From assembly GCA_026418535.1 (NCBI GenBank), contig JAOABC010000002.1, positions 62,001 through 126,000 on the forward strand: a DNA stretch of 64,000 nucleotides, given 5' to 3'. The notes beneath the pieces were generated by a model, which did not search any database, was not told the origin of the DNA, and saw nothing but the letters and a program-made list of their open reading frames with translations. Source of the stretch: Hydrogenothermaceae bacterium (GTDB lineage Bacteria > Aquificota > Aquificia > Aquificales > Hydrogenothermaceae). This document shows, in pieces, positions 54,573-63,668 of this stretch (the first letter of the stretch is position 1; each line of letters starts with the position of its first letter). The position numbers and the translations under genes are program-made.

Positions 54573-57500
54573 TCATTTCCTCTTGAACCTCTCTAGAATC
54601 TGTCTCTTTTTCTTCCTGAGCTGTCTTATTTTCTCATCTATGAACCTCTGGAGTTTGTTTGGTCTACTGCGACTAGGGTAAGGGGAGGGTTCTCTGTAGA
54701 ACAGCTTGTATACAGCTGGAAGTATAAGAAGTGTAAGTAGTGTAGATGTGAATATACCACCTATCACAACTGTTGCTATAGGTTTTTGGGTTTCAGAACC
54801 AACATCACTGGTGAGAAGTATAGGGACTAAACCTAAGGATGCAGCTGTAGCTGTTATGAGTATTGGTCTTAATCTTAGTCTTGTGGCTACTTCTATAGCT
54901 TTGTCTATCGGTTTGCCCTCTTCAAGCATCTGTCTTATGTATGATATGAGGACTACACCGTTCAGTGTTGCTATACCAAACACAGCTATGAACCCTATGG
55001 CAGCAGGGACTGATAGGTTAAACCCAGATAAGTAGAGAGCCAGTATACCTCCTATAGTTGCAAACGGAACGTTCATTAACACTATCAGACTGTCTTTTAC
55101 TGAATGGTAGTTTATGTATAAAATTATGAATATTAGTAATATAACCATAGGTATTATGATGGAGAGCTTTTTCATGGCTCTCTCTTGGTTTTCAAACTGA
55201 CCTGCAAACTTAATGTAGTACCCTTCAGGAAGTTTGATCTTACTATCTATTCCCAACCGAAGGTCGTTTATAAAACCTCCTAGATCTCTGCCTTTTAAGT
55301 TAGACTGGACTAGAGCATACCTCTGACCGTTCTCGTGTCTTATCTTAAAGAACCCTTCTGATATCTCTATGTCCGCAACTTGGGAGAGAGTTATCAGTAT
55401 ATTCTCAGAGTTAAAGACAGGGATGTTTAAGAATCTCTCTAGATCATTAAGTTCTCTGTCCGGTATCTTCAGGATGATAGGGTATGTGATCAAACCTTCT
55501 TTCAGTGTGTTTACTTCTACACCAGCTATTGCTTCCTCTATTATCTTCAGTAGGTCGTTTATAGTGAGTCCATACCTTGCAAGGAGTTCCTTCTTAGGGA
55601 GTATCTTCATCTGTAACTTACCTTTCTGGACTTCCATCTCTACGTCTACAGAGCCAGGTGTCTGACGGACTATCTCTTCTATCTTCTCTCCTATCTCGTT
55701 CAGTTTGTTAAGGTCATCTCCAAACACTTTTATAGCTACAGTGGACTTTACTCCAGATAGAAGCTCGTCTATCCTCATCTGGATAGGCTGGGTAAAACTG
55801 AACTTAGCCCCTGGAAGTTCTTCCAACTTTTTCCTTAGAGCATCCTCAAACTCAGTCTTCGTCTTAAAACTCTTCCACTCACTGTAAGGTTTTAGTATGA
55901 TAAAGGTCTCCATATAGTTCAGATCTTCTGGGTCTGCTTTCTCTGACCTACCTGCCATCGTAAAGGCGTCTTTTACCTCCGGAAAGCTTTTTGCAGTCCT
56001 TTCAACAAAGGATGCAACCTGTTTAGACTCTTCCTTCGTAACATTCGGGCTTAGGTAGGTCTTGACAAGAGATGCTCCCTCATCAAGTGTTGGAGCAAAC
56101 TCAGTCCCTATCCTTGTTAGTAGGAATACTGAGGATATGAAAGCAATAACCACCCCTGTTAGCACAACCTTTGGGTACCTTAAAGTCTTTGACAGAACTT
56201 TCTGGTAGAACTTTGCAACTATCTGCATAACTCTAGGCTCTTCCTCTTTTTCAGCCTTTAGGAAGTAGAAAGCCAAAATCGGCATGAAGATGAAAGCAAC
56301 AAGTAGGGAAGAGAACAGAGCAAAGATGATCGTAGTAGCCAGAGGTTTGTAGTATTTACCTTCTACAGACTCAAAGCTGTAGATAGGAATAAAGACTATA
56401 GCTATCACAAAAACAGCAAACAGAACAGGTCTAAAAACCTCCCTAACAGACAGAGACAGTATCTCCAACTTTCCAGATTTGGATTTGGTAAACTCCGGAG
56501 TATGATGAAAATGTCTGTATATGTTCTCTATTACCACTACAGATGCGTCTGCAAACAGACCCATTCCTATGGCAAGCCCTGCAAAAGACATCAGGTTCCC
56601 AGAGATGTCTGCATTCTTCATAAAGATGAAAGCCATCAGGAGTGTTATAGGTATAGATAAGACTGTTATCAGTGCTGCTCTAAAGTTTCCAAGGTAGAAT
56701 ATCATGGCTAATGTAACTAGAACTATACCTTCGATCAGAGCCTTCTCTACAGTATGGATAGCCTTCTCTATCAAGTAAGCTTGGTCGTAAAGGACCCGGA
56801 GGTTTACCCCTTCAGAAAGGACTTTCTTAACATCCTCAAGTTTTAAGTACACATTCTTTATAACCTCTTTGGTGTTTGTGAAGACCCTCTTTACTACGAT
56901 GTTCCCTTGGGCCTCTTCTCCATTTAGAGAGAATATTCCTCTCCTTCCTGGTACTTCATCTACGACTATTTCAGCTAATTCAGATGTTCTGAGGTAGAAA
57001 CCCTCCTTAGTCTTTATAGGTATATTCCTTATATCCTCTATACTGCTTATTACCCCTATACCCCTTAAAACTATATCTTTGCCGTTTATTATTGCGTATC
57101 CACCACCAACTAACCCTCCTCCTGCCTTTAACTGTTCTATCAACTCAGATAGGGAGATGTTATAGGCTATCATCTTCTCGTAATCAGGCTTTATCAGGAA
57201 TGCTCTATCAGGACCCCACTCGTTTATATCTTCAACTCCTTCAACGGACCTAAGCAGAGGTCTTACCTTCCATCTCTCTATACTCTTTAGCTCTGATAGT
57301 GTGTGGTTTTTTCCTTCTAAAACGTAGAACATAACAAAACTCAGTCCAGATGCGTTTGGGCCCATAACAGGCTTATAGGTTGGGTCTAATACAGACTGAG
57401 CTTCTGAGAGCTTCTCCATTACCAGTTTCCGAGCAAAGTAGACATCTGTCCCATCTTTAAAGAAGACAGTAACCTGTGATAAACCGGCTATAGAGACACT

Positions 57501-57737
57501 TCTAACACCAGTTACATTCTTCATCCCGGAAACAATTGACTCTATCTTCTTTGTTATTAGAGCCTCTACCTCTTCAGCAGATAGGCCAGGAGCCTCTGTA
57601 TAGATGTTTACTTGTATCGGAGTAGGGTCTGGAAATGTATCTACCGGAAGGGTTTTATAAGAGTAAAAACCTAGACCAACGGTGAATATAAGGATGAATA
57701 GGACTATAACTCTATTATTCAGAATAAAATCTATCAT
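54573..57737 (-). CDS. czcA: Heavy-metal RND efflux pump, CzcA-like
   Basis: This 1054-residue HME-type RND transporter has 12 TM segments and two periplasmic loops. The opening VDTFPDPTPIQVNIYTEAPGLSAEEVE and GMKNVTGVRSVS are typical of CzcA/CusA. TM4 reads GLAIGMGLFADASVVVIENIYRHFH with the proton-relay Asp. The TM10 region AAIGFIAVFGIATLNGVVLISYI follows the CzcA pattern (divalent Co/Zn/Cd/Ni) rather than the CusA pattern with a Glu. It overlaps the adaptor gene by 4 nt. Metal specificity remains an inference. Confidence 0.93.
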   Translation of the reverse strand: MIDFILNNRVIVLFILIFTVGLGFYSYKTLPVDTFPDPTPIQVNIYTEAPGLSAEEVEALITKKIESIVSGMKNVTGVRSVSIAGLSQVTVFFKDGTDVYFARKLVMEKLSEAQSVLDPTYKPVMGPNASGLSFVMFYVLEGKNHTLSELKSIERWKVRPLLRSVEGVEDINEWGPDRAFLIKPDYEKMIAYNISLSELIEQLKAGGGLVGGGYAIINGKDIVLRGIGVISSIEDIRNIPIKTKEGFYLRTSELAEIVVDEVPGRRGIFSLNGEEAQGNIVVKRVFTNTKEVIKNVYLKLEDVKKVLSEGVNLRVLYDQAYLIEKAIHTVEKALIEGIVLVTLAMIFYLGNFRAALITVLSIPITLLMAFIFMKNADISGNLMSFAGLAIGMGLFADASVVVIENIYRHFHHTPEFTKSKSGKLEILSLSVREVFRPVLFAVFVIAIVFIPIYSFESVEGKYYKPLATTIIFALFSSLLVAFIFMPILAFYFLKAEKEEEPRVMQIVAKFYQKVLSKTLRYPKVVLTGVVIAFISSVFLLTRIGTEFAPTLDEGASLVKTYLSPNVTKEESKQVASFVERTAKSFPEVKDAFTMAGRSEKADPEDLNYMETFIILKPYSEWKSFKTKTEFEDALRKKLEELPGAKFSFTQPIQMRIDELLSGVKSTVAIKVFGDDLNKLNEIGEKIEEIVRQTPGSVDVEMEVQKGKLQMKILPKKELLARYGLTINDLLKIIEEAIAGVEVNTLKEGLITYPIILKIPDRELNDLERFLNIPVFNSENILITLSQVADIEISEGFFKIRHENGQRYALVQSNLKGRDLGGFINDLRLGIDSKIKLPEGYYIKFAGQFENQERAMKKLSIIIPMVILLIFIILYINYHSVKDSLIVLMNVPFATIGGILALYLSGFNLSVPAAIGFIAVFGIATLNGVVLISYIRQMLEEGKPIDKAIEVATRLRLRPILITATAASLGLVPILLTSDVGSETQKPIATVVIGGIFTSTLLTLLILPAVYKLFYREPSPYPSRSRPNKLQRFIDEKIRQLRKKKRQILERFKRK

Positions 57738-58786
57738 CTACTACCTCCAAAAAACTCCCTCTCTAAGAGATTTAGACCAGATACAACTACTTGATCTCCA
57801 TCTGACAGTCCTTCAGAGATTACAAATCTATCATCCAACTTTTTGCCTATGATAACCGGTGTAAGTACATACTTATCTCCTTTCTTTACAACAACGTAGT
57901 TACCACTCTTTGACATGATTACAACGCTTTTGGAGATTACTATCCCATGTTCCCTGTCCTTTGAAAACCGAACTGAGACGAACATGTTTGGTTTCAAGCT
58001 GTAATCACTGTTCTTAACAGATATAAAAACTTTGTTTCTTCTCGTTTGAGGGTCTAACTGGTAGTCTATTAAGTAGACCTTTCCTGGAATTTCTCTATCT
58101 GTTGGTGTTTTGACCGTCACATCCATTCCGATCTTTGCTATCTCAATCTTCTCAGGAGGTATCTGAGTTACAACTAAGATGTTGGATATATCTGATATCT
58201 TCGCGATCTCTTTACCTATACCTACAGGGGAGCCCGCTAAGACGTAGACATCGAGGACTACTCCACTCTCTTTAGCAGTTATGAGGAGTTTGTTCTCCTT
58301 TATCTCTCCGTAAGAAGCAAGTGTTTTCTCCAGTGCCCTCAGGTTTGCTATAGCATTTTCGTACTCCACTTTAGATGAGTAGTATCTTGAGAAAGGGATA
58401 ACCTCTTCATGGTAGAGCATCTGGTCTCTCTCCAGTATGTTCTTCGCAGTCTCTACCTTTACTTTTGCTATCTCTATTTGAGACTTTATCTGGTTTATCT
58501 CCGGAGAGATCACCGTGGCTATAACCTGTCCCTTTTTTACGAAGCTACCCTTCTTCACAAGTAACTTATCTAAAACTCCATCCACCACGGAGGATACCAT
58601 GTAGCTGTTTTTTGGGTCTTCAGAGACCACTCCAGGGAACTCATCTTTATCTGAGACAACCTCTTTCTTCACCACCATAGTCTTTATATTGAAGTTCTTC
58701 TCAACTTCCTGACTTAACTTGATCTCTTTTGAAAAACCGGCTTTAATTAAGAGTATGGTCAACGTGAAAGCTACAAGTTTTTTCAT
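57734..58786 (-). CDS. czcB: CzcB/CusB-like efflux adaptor
   Basis: The periplasmic adaptor has 350 residues: a signal peptide (MKKLVAFTLTILLIKAGFSK), lipoyl halves (VVDGVLDKLLVKKGSFVKKGQVIA and ITAKESGVVLDVYVLAGSPVG), a short helical hairpin between them (about 95-155) and beta domains ending GLSDGDQVVVSGLNLLERE. No His-rich or Met-rich N-terminal metal domain is seen. It overlaps both neighbours by 4 nt. Confidence 0.9.
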   Translation of the reverse strand: MKKLVAFTLTILLIKAGFSKEIKLSQEVEKNFNIKTMVVKKEVVSDKDEFPGVVSEDPKNSYMVSSVVDGVLDKLLVKKGSFVKKGQVIATVISPEINQIKSQIEIAKVKVETAKNILERDQMLYHEEVIPFSRYYSSKVEYENAIANLRALEKTLASYGEIKENKLLITAKESGVVLDVYVLAGSPVGIGKEIAKISDISNILVVTQIPPEKIEIAKIGMDVTVKTPTDREIPGKVYLIDYQLDPQTRRNKVFISVKNSDYSLKPNMFVSVRFSKDREHGIVISKSVVIMSKSGNYVVVKKGDKYVLTPVIIGKKLDDRFVISEGLSDGDQVVVSGLNLLEREFFGGSR

Positions 58787-59958
58787 AGTAAACTGCCTCC
58801 TATCTTTATGTAATCTCCATAGTTCTTATGCGCATTGTTTAAAAGTTCATACTTAAATCTAAGGGTCTGATAGTAATCATTCTTTATACTTGTTAGTTCA
58901 AAGAGAGTTATCACTTTCAGTCTGTAGCTTTTGTTCGCAAGTTGTAACTGTTGGTTGAGAGTTGGTATAACTTTTTCTTGGAGCTCTTGAATCTGTCCTT
59001 TTAAAAGCTTGTCCGTTCTCTTTATAGATTCAAACTTTATGGAGTAGTTCTTTAGGTTGTAGTCTAACAAGTTCTCAAAGTAGGCTTTTTTGTTCCTTAT
59101 GGTGAGTAACTCTCCAAGGTATCTGTTAAACACAGGAAGTGTTGCAGACAAAAAAACTCCTCCTTCGTAGTTATTCCGGAATACCTCTCTACCTATGAAC
59201 CCTACTGATACTTGTGGCTTAGCTAAAGCTCTGTAGTACTCTTCTTGATTAGACAATGCCTTAAGGTTTGACTGAATAAACCTATAATCCGGAAGTTGTA
59301 GGAGATCTATATCCTTTATCTCTTTCAACTGGGATATGTCTCCATCAACTGTAGAAACATTAAAACCCACCTTTGCAGAGAGCCTCTCGATAGACTGTCT
59401 ATAACTTAGCTTCTGTTTTTCGTAGTTTATCTTGGTAAGTTCGTAATCCTTCTCTGACCTTAGCATGTCTATCTTTGATATCTCTCCAAGTTCATACGTC
59501 TTTCTGACAAAGCTCAGTATATCCTCAGAGAAAGCAAGCTCTTGTTTTGATATCTCTAAAAGTTCTCTGTTATAGAGAGCTTCAAAAAAGAGTGTGTATA
59601 CATCAGATATAAATTCTCTTTTAAAGGTTTCAAAGCTGTACTTTATAGCATCATACAAGTTTAAAGCCTCTTCGATCTTAAACCTTCTACTACCGTAGAG
59701 GTACAAAGGTTGAGATACTGACAACTCTGTGACTGTTCCGGAAAAATCTTTCCTTGAGATAAGTTTCCCAAACTCAGTGTATACCTCAGGATTTGCAAAC
59801 ACTCTTGCTTTCAGGATCTCTCCTTCAAAGGATTTAACCTCATACCCCTTGCTCTTTATTAACTTACTATCGTATGCTCTGTTTAGTATTTCCTCTAACG
59901 TCTCTCCTTTTACTGTAAAGAAAGAGGCTAAAACTAATCCTAGTACAACTCTTACCAT
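58783..59958 (-). CDS. czcC: CzcC-like TolC-family outer membrane protein
   Basis: The outer membrane channel of the metal efflux system has a signal peptide (MVRVVLGLVLASFFTVKG), then TLEEILNRAYDSKLIKS as the start of the repeat, long helices and a second half with DFSG-like strands and ELTSIKNDYYQTLRFKYELLN near the end. The 391 residues are near the CzcC size. GGAGGG precedes the ATG. Genes run C-B-A in the usual order, about 50 nt after the small exported protein. Confidence 0.88.
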   Translation of the reverse strand: MVRVVLGLVLASFFTVKGETLEEILNRAYDSKLIKSKGYEVKSFEGEILKARVFANPEVYTEFGKLISRKDFSGTVTELSVSQPLYLYGSRRFKIEEALNLYDAIKYSFETFKREFISDVYTLFFEALYNRELLEISKQELAFSEDILSFVRKTYELGEISKIDMLRSEKDYELTKINYEKQKLSYRQSIERLSAKVGFNVSTVDGDISQLKEIKDIDLLQLPDYRFIQSNLKALSNQEEYYRALAKPQVSVGFIGREVFRNNYEGGVFLSATLPVFNRYLGELLTIRNKKAYFENLLDYNLKNYSIKFESIKRTDKLLKGQIQELQEKVIPTLNQQLQLANKSYRLKVITLFELTSIKNDYYQTLRFKYELLNNAHKNYGDYIKIGGSLL

Positions 59959-60008
59959 AAAGTTATCCCTCCGGTTTTGGATTACTAACTACAGATATTA
60001 TAGGATCT

Positions 60009-60278
60009 TTAGATTGTTCGGGGTGGTTTAAATATCATAGATATCATAAAGTAGACCTTAAAGTTAGGTCCTTTTGACATAGACCTCATGGATTGCCATC
60101 TGAAAAAGGAGTTGTTTTCAACTGTTATATCTACATCCACCTCTTCTTTATCTTCGAACATAACTGGTCTTTCGTATGATTTTTCTTCAAGAATAACACC
60201 TTCTGAGGATGTATACTGCGTATTTATAAACATCAAAAATATAAAGGTAAAAAGCCTAAGAAACAAATTTTTTTTCAT
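60009..60278 (-). CDS. Small exported protein at head of metal efflux operon, unknown
   Basis: The 89-residue protein has a convincing signal peptide (MKKNLFLRLFTFIFLMFINTQYTSS), an acidic stretch (FEDKEEVDVDITVEN) and a C-terminal part with FRWQSMRSMSKG. The W-x-x-M-x-x-M spacing is reminiscent of the Trp/Met copper site of CusF, but the rest does not match CusF and the resemblance may be chance. It starts only about 4 nt from the predicted transcription start, without a Shine-Dalgarno, so it may be leaderless. It is the first gene of the efflux operon. Confidence 0.45.
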   Translation of the reverse strand: MKKNLFLRLFTFIFLMFINTQYTSSEGVILEEKSYERPVMFEDKEEVDVDITVENNSFFRWQSMRSMSKGPNFKVYFMISMIFKPPRTI

Positions 60279-60288
60279 TTCATTTTTA

Positions 60289-60297
60289 ATTATACCA
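60289..60297 (-). promoter_or_regulatory. Putative extended -10 promoter of metal efflux operon
   Basis: On the minus strand TGG-TATAAT is a perfect -10 hexamer with TG extension. Transcription would start near 60282, leaving almost no leader before the small exported protein gene. Confidence 0.55.
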
Positions 60298-60344
60298 AAA
60301 TCTAGTTTATAGATATAACCTTTTATTATCCGTAAAAATTGTTG

Positions 60345-60373
60345 TTGATTTAATCATTAAAGTAGTGTAAAAT
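60345..60373 (+). promoter_or_regulatory. Promoter of TonB receptor gene with overlapping palindrome
   Basis: A TTGATT -35 and a TAAAAT -10 are 17 bp apart. The palindrome TGATT-T-AATCA (60346-60356) overlaps the -35 box and could be an operator, perhaps for a metal-responsive repressor; it does not fit a full Fur box. AGGAGGT precedes the receptor ATG. Confidence 0.5.
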
Positions 60374-60406
60374 TTAACAAAAATATTAACAAAAGGAGGT
60401 TATACT

Positions 60407-62503
60407 ATGAGAAAGCTGGCTATAGCCGCTATCCTTTCAACTACTGCTATATATACGTTTGCAAACGCTCAGACAACCATAAAGGTAGAGAAGATCACCA
60501 TCAAGGAAAAACAGAAAAAAGAAGAGTTCTCCAAGAAAGAGATAACCCAAGAGGATGTGAAGATAACGAGACAGGTCGACCTTGGAGAGATTCTATCCGG
60601 AATATATCCGGAAGTGAACTTTATGAGAAAAGCTGGAACAGCCAATGACCTGAACGTCAGAGGTTTTAGTAGGGACAACATAAACGTATTTATAGACGGC
60701 TCTGAAGTCCACGGTGCATGTCCAAACAGGATGGACCCTCCGTCTTTCCACGTATCTTCTCCACAGATAGAGAAGATAGAGATAAAGGAAGGTCCATTTG
60801 ATGTAGAGAATCCAGGAACTCTTGCAGCTATTGTGAACGTGAAAACAAAGGATCCTAAAGAGGGAGTGGGAGGAGAGACGGGGGTTACTGTAGGAAGTTT
60901 CAGTTACAGAACCGGCTACTTCTGGGGTAACGTTGGAAGTAAGTTTATAAAAGTGTTAGTAGGTGCGTCTAACCAGTACTCAAAACCCTATGAAAGTGGA
61001 GAAGGTAAGAAGGTTACAGAGTATGCTGTCTACACAACACCAGCAGGTCAAACTGCAGGTAGGTACAAACCTCAGTATATAAATGAAAAAGTATTCAACA
61101 TAGATAGAGTTTGGTCTAAAGTCATTCTGACACCAACTGACAAAGTAGAGTTTAAACTGTCCTATGCCTTTGAAAACGCACGGAACATTCTATACCCAGC
61201 CTTGAGGATGGATGCTCTGTATGATAGAACCAACAGGTTAAACGCAGACTTTGATATAAAGGATCTAGGTCTAAAGATATCTGCATACCAAAACAAAATA
61301 AAACACGACATGAGAGACACATTTAGAACTACCTCTGGCACAGCTGCCTACAGTATGATGACATACGCTGAGTCAAGTATGACAGGTTTTAAGGTTGTAA
61401 AGAGCTTCGGCTTGGGCTGGATGGATGTAGATGTAGGAGCTGACTACTACCTCAGAAATTGGAAAGCTAACAACATCCAAGCAGCTAATACTCCTAACCC
61501 GAATAGAAACCCTGGTATGATTCCGGATGTGGATATAAAGAACGTAGGTCTCTTTGTCAAAGGGGTTAGAGATATACAAAACTGGACCATCTCCACCGGT
61601 TTGAGGTTTGATAGTACAAAGTCAGAGGCTGATAAAAACGCAATCTCCGGAAACAACAATATACTTATAACTAAAGGTCTCCTAAACAGCTTCTCAAAGA
61701 CAGACAGCTACCCTTCCGGATACATCCTTGCAAAATACAAAATAGATAAAAGAAATAACCTGTACATAGGATTTGGACATTCAGTTAGAGTCCCAGACCC
61801 TATAGAGAGATATATAGCCCTTTCTGGACAGGCACCTTGGTATGGTAACCCTAGTCTAAAACCTACAAAGAACAACGAGATAGATGTTGGGGCAGAGTCG
61901 TACCCTATAGACAACCTTGGATTGAGGGCTAACCTGTTCTACAGCGATCTAACAGACTTTATCTATCTAAGACAGTATCAAGGTATATGTCTATCCGGAA
62001 CAGGAAACTGTACTTACACAACTTACCAAAATATAGATGCTAAAATATATGGGGGAGATCTTTCTCTTTTCTACGGATTTAACGAAAAGCTATCAGCAGA
62101 GGCAAGTTTAGCATACCAAAGGGGTAAGAAAGACAGTGGTGTGTACAAAGATAGTGATTTGACAGAGATACCTCCCCTAAAGTCCAGAGTAGCTCTGAAG
62201 TATGATGACGGTGCATTCTACGGTCTGATAGAGGGTATATACCAAGCTAGGCAATCAAAGGTGGACTCTGATTTAAAAGAGATTGAAACCTCACCTTACT
62301 TCATAATGAACCTGAAGGTTGGGTATACATATGCTAACAGACTCTTCTTTGGGCTTGGTGTGGATAACGTCTTTGATAGACTGTACTACAACTACCTATC
62401 TTATGTAAGAGACCCATTTAGAGGTATATCTGTATCCGGAAACCCTGTAAAAATTCCTGAGCCAGGAAGGTTTATCTATGCAAACCTATCGTACAAGTTC
62501 TAA
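60407..62503 (+). CDS. TonB-dependent receptor, OprC/NosA-like (copper uptake)
   Basis: The 698-residue outer membrane receptor has a signal peptide (MRKLAIAAILSTTAIYTFANA), a plug domain and a 22-strand barrel ending RFIYANLSYKF. The plug has GSEVHGACPNRMDPPSFHV, which contains the CxxxM pair (Cys about 105, Met about 109) found in OprC, and the barrel has KHDMRD, an HxM pair at about residues 300 and 302. Those four ligands form the copper site described for Pseudomonas OprC, so copper uptake is the best call; NosA is the related name. Strong AGGAGGT, own promoter, and a terminator behind it. Divergent from the metal efflux operon. Confidence 0.88.
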   Translation: MRKLAIAAILSTTAIYTFANAQTTIKVEKITIKEKQKKEEFSKKEITQEDVKITRQVDLGEILSGIYPEVNFMRKAGTANDLNVRGFSRDNINVFIDGSEVHGACPNRMDPPSFHVSSPQIEKIEIKEGPFDVENPGTLAAIVNVKTKDPKEGVGGETGVTVGSFSYRTGYFWGNVGSKFIKVLVGASNQYSKPYESGEGKKVTEYAVYTTPAGQTAGRYKPQYINEKVFNIDRVWSKVILTPTDKVEFKLSYAFENARNILYPALRMDALYDRTNRLNADFDIKDLGLKISAYQNKIKHDMRDTFRTTSGTAAYSMMTYAESSMTGFKVVKSFGLGWMDVDVGADYYLRNWKANNIQAANTPNPNRNPGMIPDVDIKNVGLFVKGVRDIQNWTISTGLRFDSTKSEADKNAISGNNNILITKGLLNSFSKTDSYPSGYILAKYKIDKRNNLYIGFGHSVRVPDPIERYIALSGQAPWYGNPSLKPTKNNEIDVGAESYPIDNLGLRANLFYSDLTDFIYLRQYQGICLSGTGNCTYTTYQNIDAKIYGGDLSLFYGFNEKLSAEASLAYQRGKKDSGVYKDSDLTEIPPLKSRVALKYDDGAFYGLIEGIYQARQSKVDSDLKEIETSPYFIMNLKVGYTYANRLFFGLGVDNVFDRLYYNYLSYVRDPFRGISVSGNPVKIPEPGRFIYANLSYKF

Positions 62504-62516
62504 ACCCTGCTGCAGC

Positions 62517-62580
62517 TAAAGACCTCCTGTCTTTAAAAGGGCAACTGCCGGGTATCAAACCCGGCTTTTTCCTTTTTTAA
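62517..62580 (+). terminator. Rho-independent terminator after TonB receptor
   Basis: GCCGGGT-ATCAA-ACCCGGC (62547-62565) is a perfect 7-bp G+C-rich stem followed by a T-rich tract (TTTTTCCTTTTTT). A second hairpin, TAAAGAC-CTCCT-GTCTTTA (62517-62535), lies just upstream. Confidence 0.92.
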
Positions 62581-62605
62581 TATCTAAAAATCAAACACTG
62601 TTTTA

Positions 62606-62634
62606 TTGACAAAACTTTAATATTGTTTTATCCT
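62606..62634 (+). promoter_or_regulatory. Sigma70-type promoter of mdh
   Basis: A perfect TTGACA -35 is 17 bp from TATCCT. It lies between the terminator and mdh, about 36 nt before the ATG, and is the best consensus -35/-10 pair in the window. Confidence 0.65.
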
Positions 62635-62669
62635 AATGTTCACATTTTTCAAGTAGGAGGCTTCATAAT

Positions 62670-63668
62670 ATGGCAGACTATAAGAGACCTACTGTATCAA
62701 TTGTTGGAGCGGGAAACGTAGGGGAGCACGTAGCAAACCTAATAGCAATCAAAGAGCTTGCAAATATCAAACTGCTTGATCTACCAAAGAAGGCAGAGGA
62801 TAGAGTTTTTGAAGTTGTGAAGGGCAAAGCCCTTGATATGAAGCAGATGGCTTCAGCTATTGGTGTTGATGTAGAGATAGAGGGGTACACAGTGACTGCA
62901 GATGGACAAGGATACGAACCCCTAAAGGACTCAGATATCGTTATAATAACCGCAGGTTTTCCAAGGAAACCTGGTATGAGTAGAGATGACCTCCTTTCAG
63001 CAAACGTAAACATAATAAGGACTGTCTCTGAAAGGATAGCCCTCTATGCTCCCAACGCTGTGGTTATTGTTGTTTCCAACCCTGTAGATGTTCTAACGTA
63101 CGCTACTCTAAAAATAACCAAATTCCCAAAGAACAAAGTTATGGGTATGGCTGGGGTGTTAGATACAGCAAGGTTTAAAACTTTTATATCAAAAGAATTA
63201 AAAGTGTCTGTTTCAAACATAAACTGTTTTGTGGTTGGTGGTCATGGAGATGAGATGGTTCCCTTAATCTCAGCCTCTAACGTTGGGGGTATACCTCTTA
63301 CTAAACTGTTCTCTAAAGAAAAACTTGAGGAGATAATCAAGAGAACCAAGTTTGGAGGAGGAGAGATAGTTAACCTCATGGGAACATCTGCCTACCATGC
63401 TCCAGGTGCTTCTGTAGCTGAGATGGTTGAGACTGTCTTAAAAGACAAAAAACAGATAATGCCATGCTCAGTATACGTAGATGGTGAAGATGCAAGGTTC
63501 TATGAAGCTTACGATGTCTGTGTTGGTCTGCCTGTTAAGGTGGGAGCTCACGGTTGGGAAGAGATACTAAAAGTTGAACTATCTGAAGAGGAGAGGGCTA
63601 TGTGGCATTCTTCTGTTAAGTCTGTAAAAGAGGGAATAGAGAGAATAAAAGAGCTTAAACTGATATAA
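62670..63668 (+). CDS. mdh: Malate dehydrogenase
   Basis: MDH interconverts oxaloacetate and malate, here probably in the reductive TCA cycle. The 332-residue LDH/MDH-family protein has the NAD fold VSIVGAGNVGEHVA, active-loop PRKPGMSRDDLLSANV (Arg pair typical of malate specificity), VVSNPVDVLTY and the catalytic His in VVGGHGDEMVPL. It closely follows the pattern of Aquifex MDH. TAGGAGG precedes the ATG. A fumarase gene follows after 19 nt. Confidence 0.95.
   Translation: MADYKRPTVSIVGAGNVGEHVANLIAIKELANIKLLDLPKKAEDRVFEVVKGKALDMKQMASAIGVDVEIEGYTVTADGQGYEPLKDSDIVIITAGFPRKPGMSRDDLLSANVNIIRTVSERIALYAPNAVVIVVSNPVDVLTYATLKITKFPKNKVMGMAGVLDTARFKTFISKELKVSVSNINCFVVGGHGDEMVPLISASNVGGIPLTKLFSKEKLEEIIKRTKFGGGEIVNLMGTSAYHAPGASVAEMVETVLKDKKQIMPCSVYVDGEDARFYEAYDVCVGLPVKVGAHGWEEILKVELSEEERAMWHSSVKSVKEGIERIKELKLI

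Follow-up and report, generated by a model that had tools for sequence, protein, structure and literature searches.

The DNA examined here, referred to as the window, is a stretch of 64,000 nucleotides from a Hydrogenothermaceae bacterium (contig JAOABC010000002.1). It contains an intact open reading frame for a TonB-dependent outer-membrane receptor (hereafter oprC; Table 1), whose ATG start codon stands a little 3' of the sequence AGGAGG. Its product comprises a likely signal peptide (residues ~1-21, judged by eye), a plug domain (~40-150), and a 22-strand barrel that extends to residue 698. A terminator-like hairpin follows oprC and suggests that the gene is transcribed on its own, and an RND operon runs divergently on the other side. 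The earlier note had taken czcC for the divergent gene next to oprC, but an 89-codon gene that it had missed lies between them, and the interval 60279-60406 is the gap between oprC and this small gene. We consider the small gene to be real because a similar gene with an invariant KPP motif heads the same RND operon in four further genomes, namely G078 (L032), G102 (L188), G097 (L189), and G100 (L190). Its product, which has no match in Pfam or NCBIfam, might serve the RND pump as a metal chaperone or sensor. No copper genes are located directly next to oprC in the window.

Table 1. Features at the oprC locus (positions are those of the window)
Feature	Positions	Strand	Length	Basis
RND heavy-metal permease (CusA/CzcA family)	54573..57737	-		Pfam, NCBIfam, CusA alignment
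RND periplasmic adaptor (CzcB/CusB-like)	57734..58786	-		Pfam, NCBIfam, orthologs
RND outer-membrane factor (OEP/TolC family)	58783..59958	-		Pfam, NCBIfam
Small putative exported protein, KPP near C-terminus, RND operon gene 1	60009..60278	-	89 aa	Similar gene in relatives; export signal by eye
Sigma-70-like promoter match, TTGATT-17-TAAAAT	60345..60373	+		Similar-looking stretch upstream of oprC in relatives (by eye)
oprC-like gene, TonB-dependent outer-membrane receptor	60407..62503	+	698 aa	Pfam, NCBIfam, PDB searches, model
C105-PNR-M109 codons, plug half of predicted copper site (OprC C143/M147)	60719..60733	+		Alignment, conservation
M268 codon, OprC Met286 equivalent (methionine track, silver site 2)	61208..61210	+		Profile alignment, conservation
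H300-D-M302 codons, barrel half of predicted copper site (OprC H323/M325)	61304..61312	+		Alignment, conservation
M317 codon, OprC Met343 equivalent (methionine track, common to silver sites 2 and 3)	61355..61357	+		Profile alignment, conservation
Terminator-like hairpin and T tail 3' of oprC	62547..62565	+		Sequence
Downstream neighbor, malate/lactate-dehydrogenase-like gene (mdh-like, named by eye)	62670..63668	+		

The receptor matched both PF07715 (plug) and PF00593 (barrel) above the Pfam cut-offs, and the best of nine NCBIfam models was TIGR01778 (TonB-copper). Its score of 229 bits lies below the curated equivalog cut-off of 472 bits, so that the receptor is not filed as an equivalog member and is regarded here as an OprC-type receptor of a divergent branch. 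When the single sequence was searched against the PDB, six OprC sequences were retrieved (E values of 1.9e-30 or lower), the next match being PirA at 2.6e-4. An AlphaFold2 model based on a 54-row alignment (pLDDT 86.8) has 22 barrel strands, and the first 28 Foldseek hits of this model in the PDB were all OprC chains (3.3e-42 to 3.1e-37), with PhuR coming after them at 1.1e-34. Superposition of the model on the best OprC chain by VIA-align gave a Z score of 40.2 (2.4 Å over 592 residues); identity between this protein of a Hydrogenothermaceae-type genome and the Pseudomonas OprC is 19-23% by structure. Considering that the remaining OprC chains scored as low as 38.2 and that BtuB and ChuA reached 39.1 and 38.5, VIA-align separates OprC poorly from these two receptors, and the substrate is therefore not given by fold alone. 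The case for an OprC-type receptor is built on the profile and on the conserved ligands, without leaning on VIA-align.

Both halves of the OprC copper site pointed out in the earlier note (C105-x3-M109 and H300-x-M302) are indeed present, and residues 105, 109, 300, and 302 are Cys, Met, His, and Met. A profile built from 27 Aquificota relatives matched OprC with an E value of 5.4e-70 in an alignment that begins at the plug and extends to the C-terminal residue, in which C105, M109, H300, and M302 stand opposite C143, M147, H323, and M325 of OprC; the runners-up with the same profile were far weaker (PhuR, 8.8e-26; ZnuD, 8e-21). There is a single CxxxM and a single HxM in the whole protein, neither of which occurs in the three further plug-domain proteins detected in this genome, and both motifs were found anywhere in the sequence in 49 of 20,000 composition shuffles. 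Conservation was assessed in an alignment of 106 rows, half of which (53) came from whole-genome loci, including two rows of the window's own protein, and half (53) from named contigs. All 104 rows that cover position 105 have the cysteine, and M109, H300, and M302 are present in all 106. The contig scan with the alignment, of which the best 80 of 405 matches were kept, used patterns including ACPNRM and LYPxLxMD, and conservation of C105, M109, and M268 in the named-contig half is therefore partly selected; no such selection bears on H300, M302, and M317 in either half, nor on any residue in the whole-genome half. A scan of the named contigs with the single receptor protein as query found no relative. 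The position of the four residues in the profile, together with their invariance in relatives, is the main argument, and a strong one, for a predicted site of the OprC type.

In principle, the OprC residues could have been retained in a structural role by a receptor for another substrate (such as zinc, iron, or heme), considering that the fold is common to other TonB-dependent receptors and that PhuR and ZnuD come next after OprC in the profile search. However, Cys-Met-His-Met and M268 are kept in relatives down to ~33% identity, which is hard to account for structurally, and copper genes adjoin oprC in some relatives; we consider such a receptor very improbable. Taken together, sequence, profile, fold, and conservation uphold the earlier identification, and a divergent OprC-type copper receptor is well supported.

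OprC of Pseudomonas aeruginosa (6fok, 6z8q, and further PDB entries), as described in passages of PMC8610252, shares with the receptor the 22 strands, the four ligands, and the equivalents of Met286 and Met343, which in OprC are ligands of silver sites in a track of 11-12 methionines. According to passages of the same source and of PMC7558416, NosA of Pseudomonas stutzeri is an OprC ortholog, and PMC8610252 describes it as keeping just part of the track residues. Because NosA itself conserves only some of them, the full track was not treated as defining. The receptor has 11 methionines in total, and an OprC-like track is mostly absent from it: by profile alignment, its counterparts are M268 and M317 alone, with M318 and M325 nearby in sequence. 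These two are the only strongly conserved track equivalents, M268 being kept in 106 of 106 rows and M317 in 99 of 106 (53/53 in the whole-genome half). It is possible that M268 and M317 form a minimal two-methionine relay.

Most characterized TonB-dependent receptors carry chelates, and it could be supposed that this one imports copper bound to a metallophore or to a protein and not the ion. The loading of OprC by azurin, as reported by others, points in the same direction, but PMC8610252, in the passages discussing it, saw no complex itself and describes OprC crystal structures that hold ionic copper at the equivalent site. As this site is also invariant in the relatives, import of a copper chelate or copper protein appears unlikely.

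The earlier note had further proposed that import and export share control in the gap between oprC and the pump operon, i.e., that the two form one copper-homeostasis unit. In both genomes of the window's genus, the two do lie side by side in divergent orientation, and the pump is a heavy-metal RND system: the permease scored 954.6 bits against TIGR00914 (cut-off, 701.45) and is therefore a member of the CusA/CzcA family, to which the CusCBA, CzcCBA, and ZneCBA exporters also belong. The czcCBA label given previously is right about the family but only approximate, the nearest solved pump in the PDB being ZneA. The CusA three-methionine site, which we take to be M573, M623, and M672, is not found in the permease, where K559, Y608, and E658 occupy the aligned positions; this and the small KPP leader gene distinguish the operon from CusCBA. 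Gene order also argues against a shared unit. Among 40 relatives' loci (L032-L071, 9 to 18 kb each), an orthologous RND operon adjoins oprC only in G078, which is of the same genus; four others (L033, L046, L057, and L061) have no more than distant matches of the RND type within 8 kb of oprC (23-31% identity), which were not counted as the orthologous operon. In three genomes of another genus (Sulfurihydrogenibium-type), RND operons of the window's type, with adaptor orthologs of 56-60% identity, sit away from oprC, either on different contigs (G100 and G102) or on one contig at ~31 kb versus 568 kb, more than 500 kb apart (G097).

The flanks of oprC in relatives may explain how the pump came to its place. 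A fumarate-reductase-like iron-sulfur gene lies upstream of oprC, with or without one gene between, in G097, G098, G099, and G100, and in G078 such a gene (69% identical to the G104 copy) is found just past the RND operon, an order that looks like an insertion of this operon between the iron-sulfur gene and oprC. Upstream of oprC there is the RND operon in the window's genus and a nos cluster in G102; the mdh-like gene is retained 3' of oprC in G078 and in four of seven Sulfurihydrogenibium-type genomes. A distant TonB-dependent-receptor-like match (19% identity) directly precedes oprC in L068 (G023), ~2.1 kb before its start. The minus strand of 60279-60406 has no promoter-like site. Based on synteny and pump residues, a shared import-export regulon was rejected as very improbable, which removes an attractive but weak idea of a copper switch at this locus; the pump beside oprC is probably a chance neighbor and not a partner.

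With respect to regulation of oprC itself, six promoter-like matches were found in the region against 6.6 expected, i.e., at chance level, and the match listed in Table 1 should be read in this light. No known RNA elements reached the gathering score within 59500-62800. In L034, an FNR-like palindrome (TTGATTTAAATCAA, noticed by eye) is located upstream of oprC, which follows nos genes there; a comparable box is not clear upstream of oprC in the window.

Copper-related neighbors of oprC were found in part of the 40 loci, the Pfam names of neighboring genes being taken from one representative per cluster. Genes for nosL, nosD, or nosY lie beside oprC in nine loci, eight of which also have PCuAC, SCO, and cytochrome c genes between nos and oprC, and one more locus has an SCO-family gene immediately upstream, so that nos genes, PCuAC, or SCO are near oprC in 10 of 40. 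TonB and/or ExbB/ExbD genes are near oprC in six loci, and neither copper nor TonB neighbors were observed in 25. The Persephonella-type loci L038-L043, L045, and L050 have the order nos genes, cytochrome c, PCuAC-SCO (divergent), and oprC, the last gene forming the end of a nitrous-oxide-reductase/PCuAC/SCO cluster. A tonB-like gene (blastp E ≤ 1e-6) also stands next to oprC in relatives beyond the Aquificota, namely in 13 of 39 loci, all belonging to Thermodesulfobacteriota or Myxococcota records.

Every one of the 32 genomes in which nosZ scored above the cut-off also contains oprC; in G020, a sub-cut-off nosZ fragment (255 bits) occurs with no oprC match. The proximity of oprC to nos genes is not a general rule, an assumption that was rejected on the nosZ-bearing loci of both families. 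Within the 40 loci, the window's family contributes 11 that bear nosZ: oprC is beside nos in nine but not in G099, and in G071 nosZ is on a contig other than that of oprC, so that adjacency cannot be judged. In G086, one of the genomes with nos beside oprC, nosZ is split into two sub-cut-off pieces, one at the end of the same contig. In the second family, none of six nosZ-positive loci has nosZ near oprC.

The receptor resembles NosA in being of the same kind and in that its gene adjoins the nos cluster in Persephonella-type genomes and one Sulfurihydrogenibium-type relative. Unlike in P. stutzeri, however, nitrous oxide reductase is not the client here: NosZ (TIGR04246) had no match in the window's genome (G000) or in G078, the NosZ search of the window's genome returned no weak CuA-type match either, and a NosA role in this organism was rejected. 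The genome encodes one PF00115 protein, which scored 191 bits against cbb3 CcoN (below the equivalog cut-off) and matched solved cbb3 subunits (3mk7, 1.1e-42). It has histidines at the positions aligned with the cbb3 CuB ligands, for which we assumed the residue roles in the solved subunit, and its gene is flanked by CcoO-like and cytochrome c genes. One SCO protein and three heavy-metal P-type ATPases above the cut-off are also encoded, and PCuAC had no match in this genome. As there is one cbb3-type oxidase with CuB histidines and no nosZ match, we infer that this oxidase is the likeliest copper client. The genome has two exbB-exbD-tonB sets, one of which resembles the set located beside oprC in some Aquificaceae. 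In L086 (4455-10423), the second set, partly named by eye, precedes genes for a repeat-like protein and for a 1028-residue receptor with a plug match, the latter adjoining phosphate-transporter-like genes.

Considering these results, the receptor is likely a TonB-dependent outer-membrane copper importer of the OprC/NosA type with a predicted four-ligand site, whose main client is probably the cbb3 oxidase. We infer copper as the substrate and inward transport as its direction. Copper would reach the Cys-Met-His-Met site, to which the plug contributes C105/M109 and the barrel H300/M302, and would probably pass a short relay of two methionines (M268-M317). The plug would then be opened by TonB-ExbB-ExbD, whose genes lie elsewhere in the genome, and the ion would be let into the periplasm, where loading of the single CuB-containing oxidase might be helped by the SCO protein and the P-type ATPases.

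The occurrence of oprC was also compared with that of oxidases. A PF00115 protein was found in 87 of 90 genomes with oprC and in 13 of 46 without an oprC match, three genomes having oprC and no PF00115; genomes absent from the listed output were assigned by subtraction, and CuB ligands were checked in the copy of the window's genome alone. PF00115 also includes nitric oxide reductases without copper. This co-occurrence tracks family lines and is confounded by ancestry, and it is thus not an independent test. In G104, which is listed as 99% complete and has neither PF00115 nor an SCO match, oprC is reduced to a stump of the last ~100 codons at the 3' end of the gene (L088, 6552-6848). The stump lies inside the contig at the syntenic place and adjoins an ortholog (67-70%) of the iron-sulfur gene of G097-G099. 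We read this single case as an importer that has decayed where its client was lost.

Of 136 genomes of the phylum, 90 have a relative of the receptor (E ≤ 1e-20), and these 90 fall into two families (105 genomes); at the same threshold, no relative was found among the listed genomes of the third Aquificota family. The receptor gene is an ordinary, widely kept gene of its two families. The earlier remark that few thermophilic examples are described applies to the literature, in which the abstract of the OprC paper (PMC8610252) speaks of Proteobacteria, but not to the genomes. Searches linking OprC or "TonB-dependent copper receptor" with Aquific-, or joining Persephonella with nosZ and TonB-dependent, found no paper in a literature mostly without subscription journals. 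A passage of PMC6013743 assigns a Geobacter soli protein and its G. sulfurreducens homolog to TonB-dependent copper receptors, and published work thus already extends the family, at least in part, beyond the classical Proteobacteria. In a quick midpoint-rooted tree of 85 of the 106 rows (near-duplicates of kept Aquificota rows were left out), the Hydrogenothermaceae receptors are placed near Campylobacterota and those of Aquificaceae near Acidobacteriota and Thermodesulfobacteriota, and this tree does not establish a single origin within Aquificota.

It is tempting to go one step further and view OprC-type uptake as an old core trait of the O2- and N2O-respiring Aquificota families that serves copper enzymes and not resistance. 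Such a trait would be joined with nos, PCuAC, and SCO genes into clusters in some genera, kept for a lone cbb3 oxidase where nosZ is missing, as in the window's genome, and lost by decay as in G104, and the minimal copper path would consist of the four ligands and two methionines, the longer Pseudomonas track being an elaboration. As a whole, we offer this only tentatively and regard it as possible but rather doubtful. Copper uptake by OprC has so far been discussed mainly for Proteobacteria. The presence of its site in 90 of 105 genomes of two Aquificota families, as well as in Campylobacterota, Geobacteraceae, and Acidobacteria records, suggests that import of copper through a dedicated outer-membrane receptor is far more widespread, its likely clients being N2O reductase and the cbb3 oxidase; homologs from thermophiles are thereby at hand for structural work.
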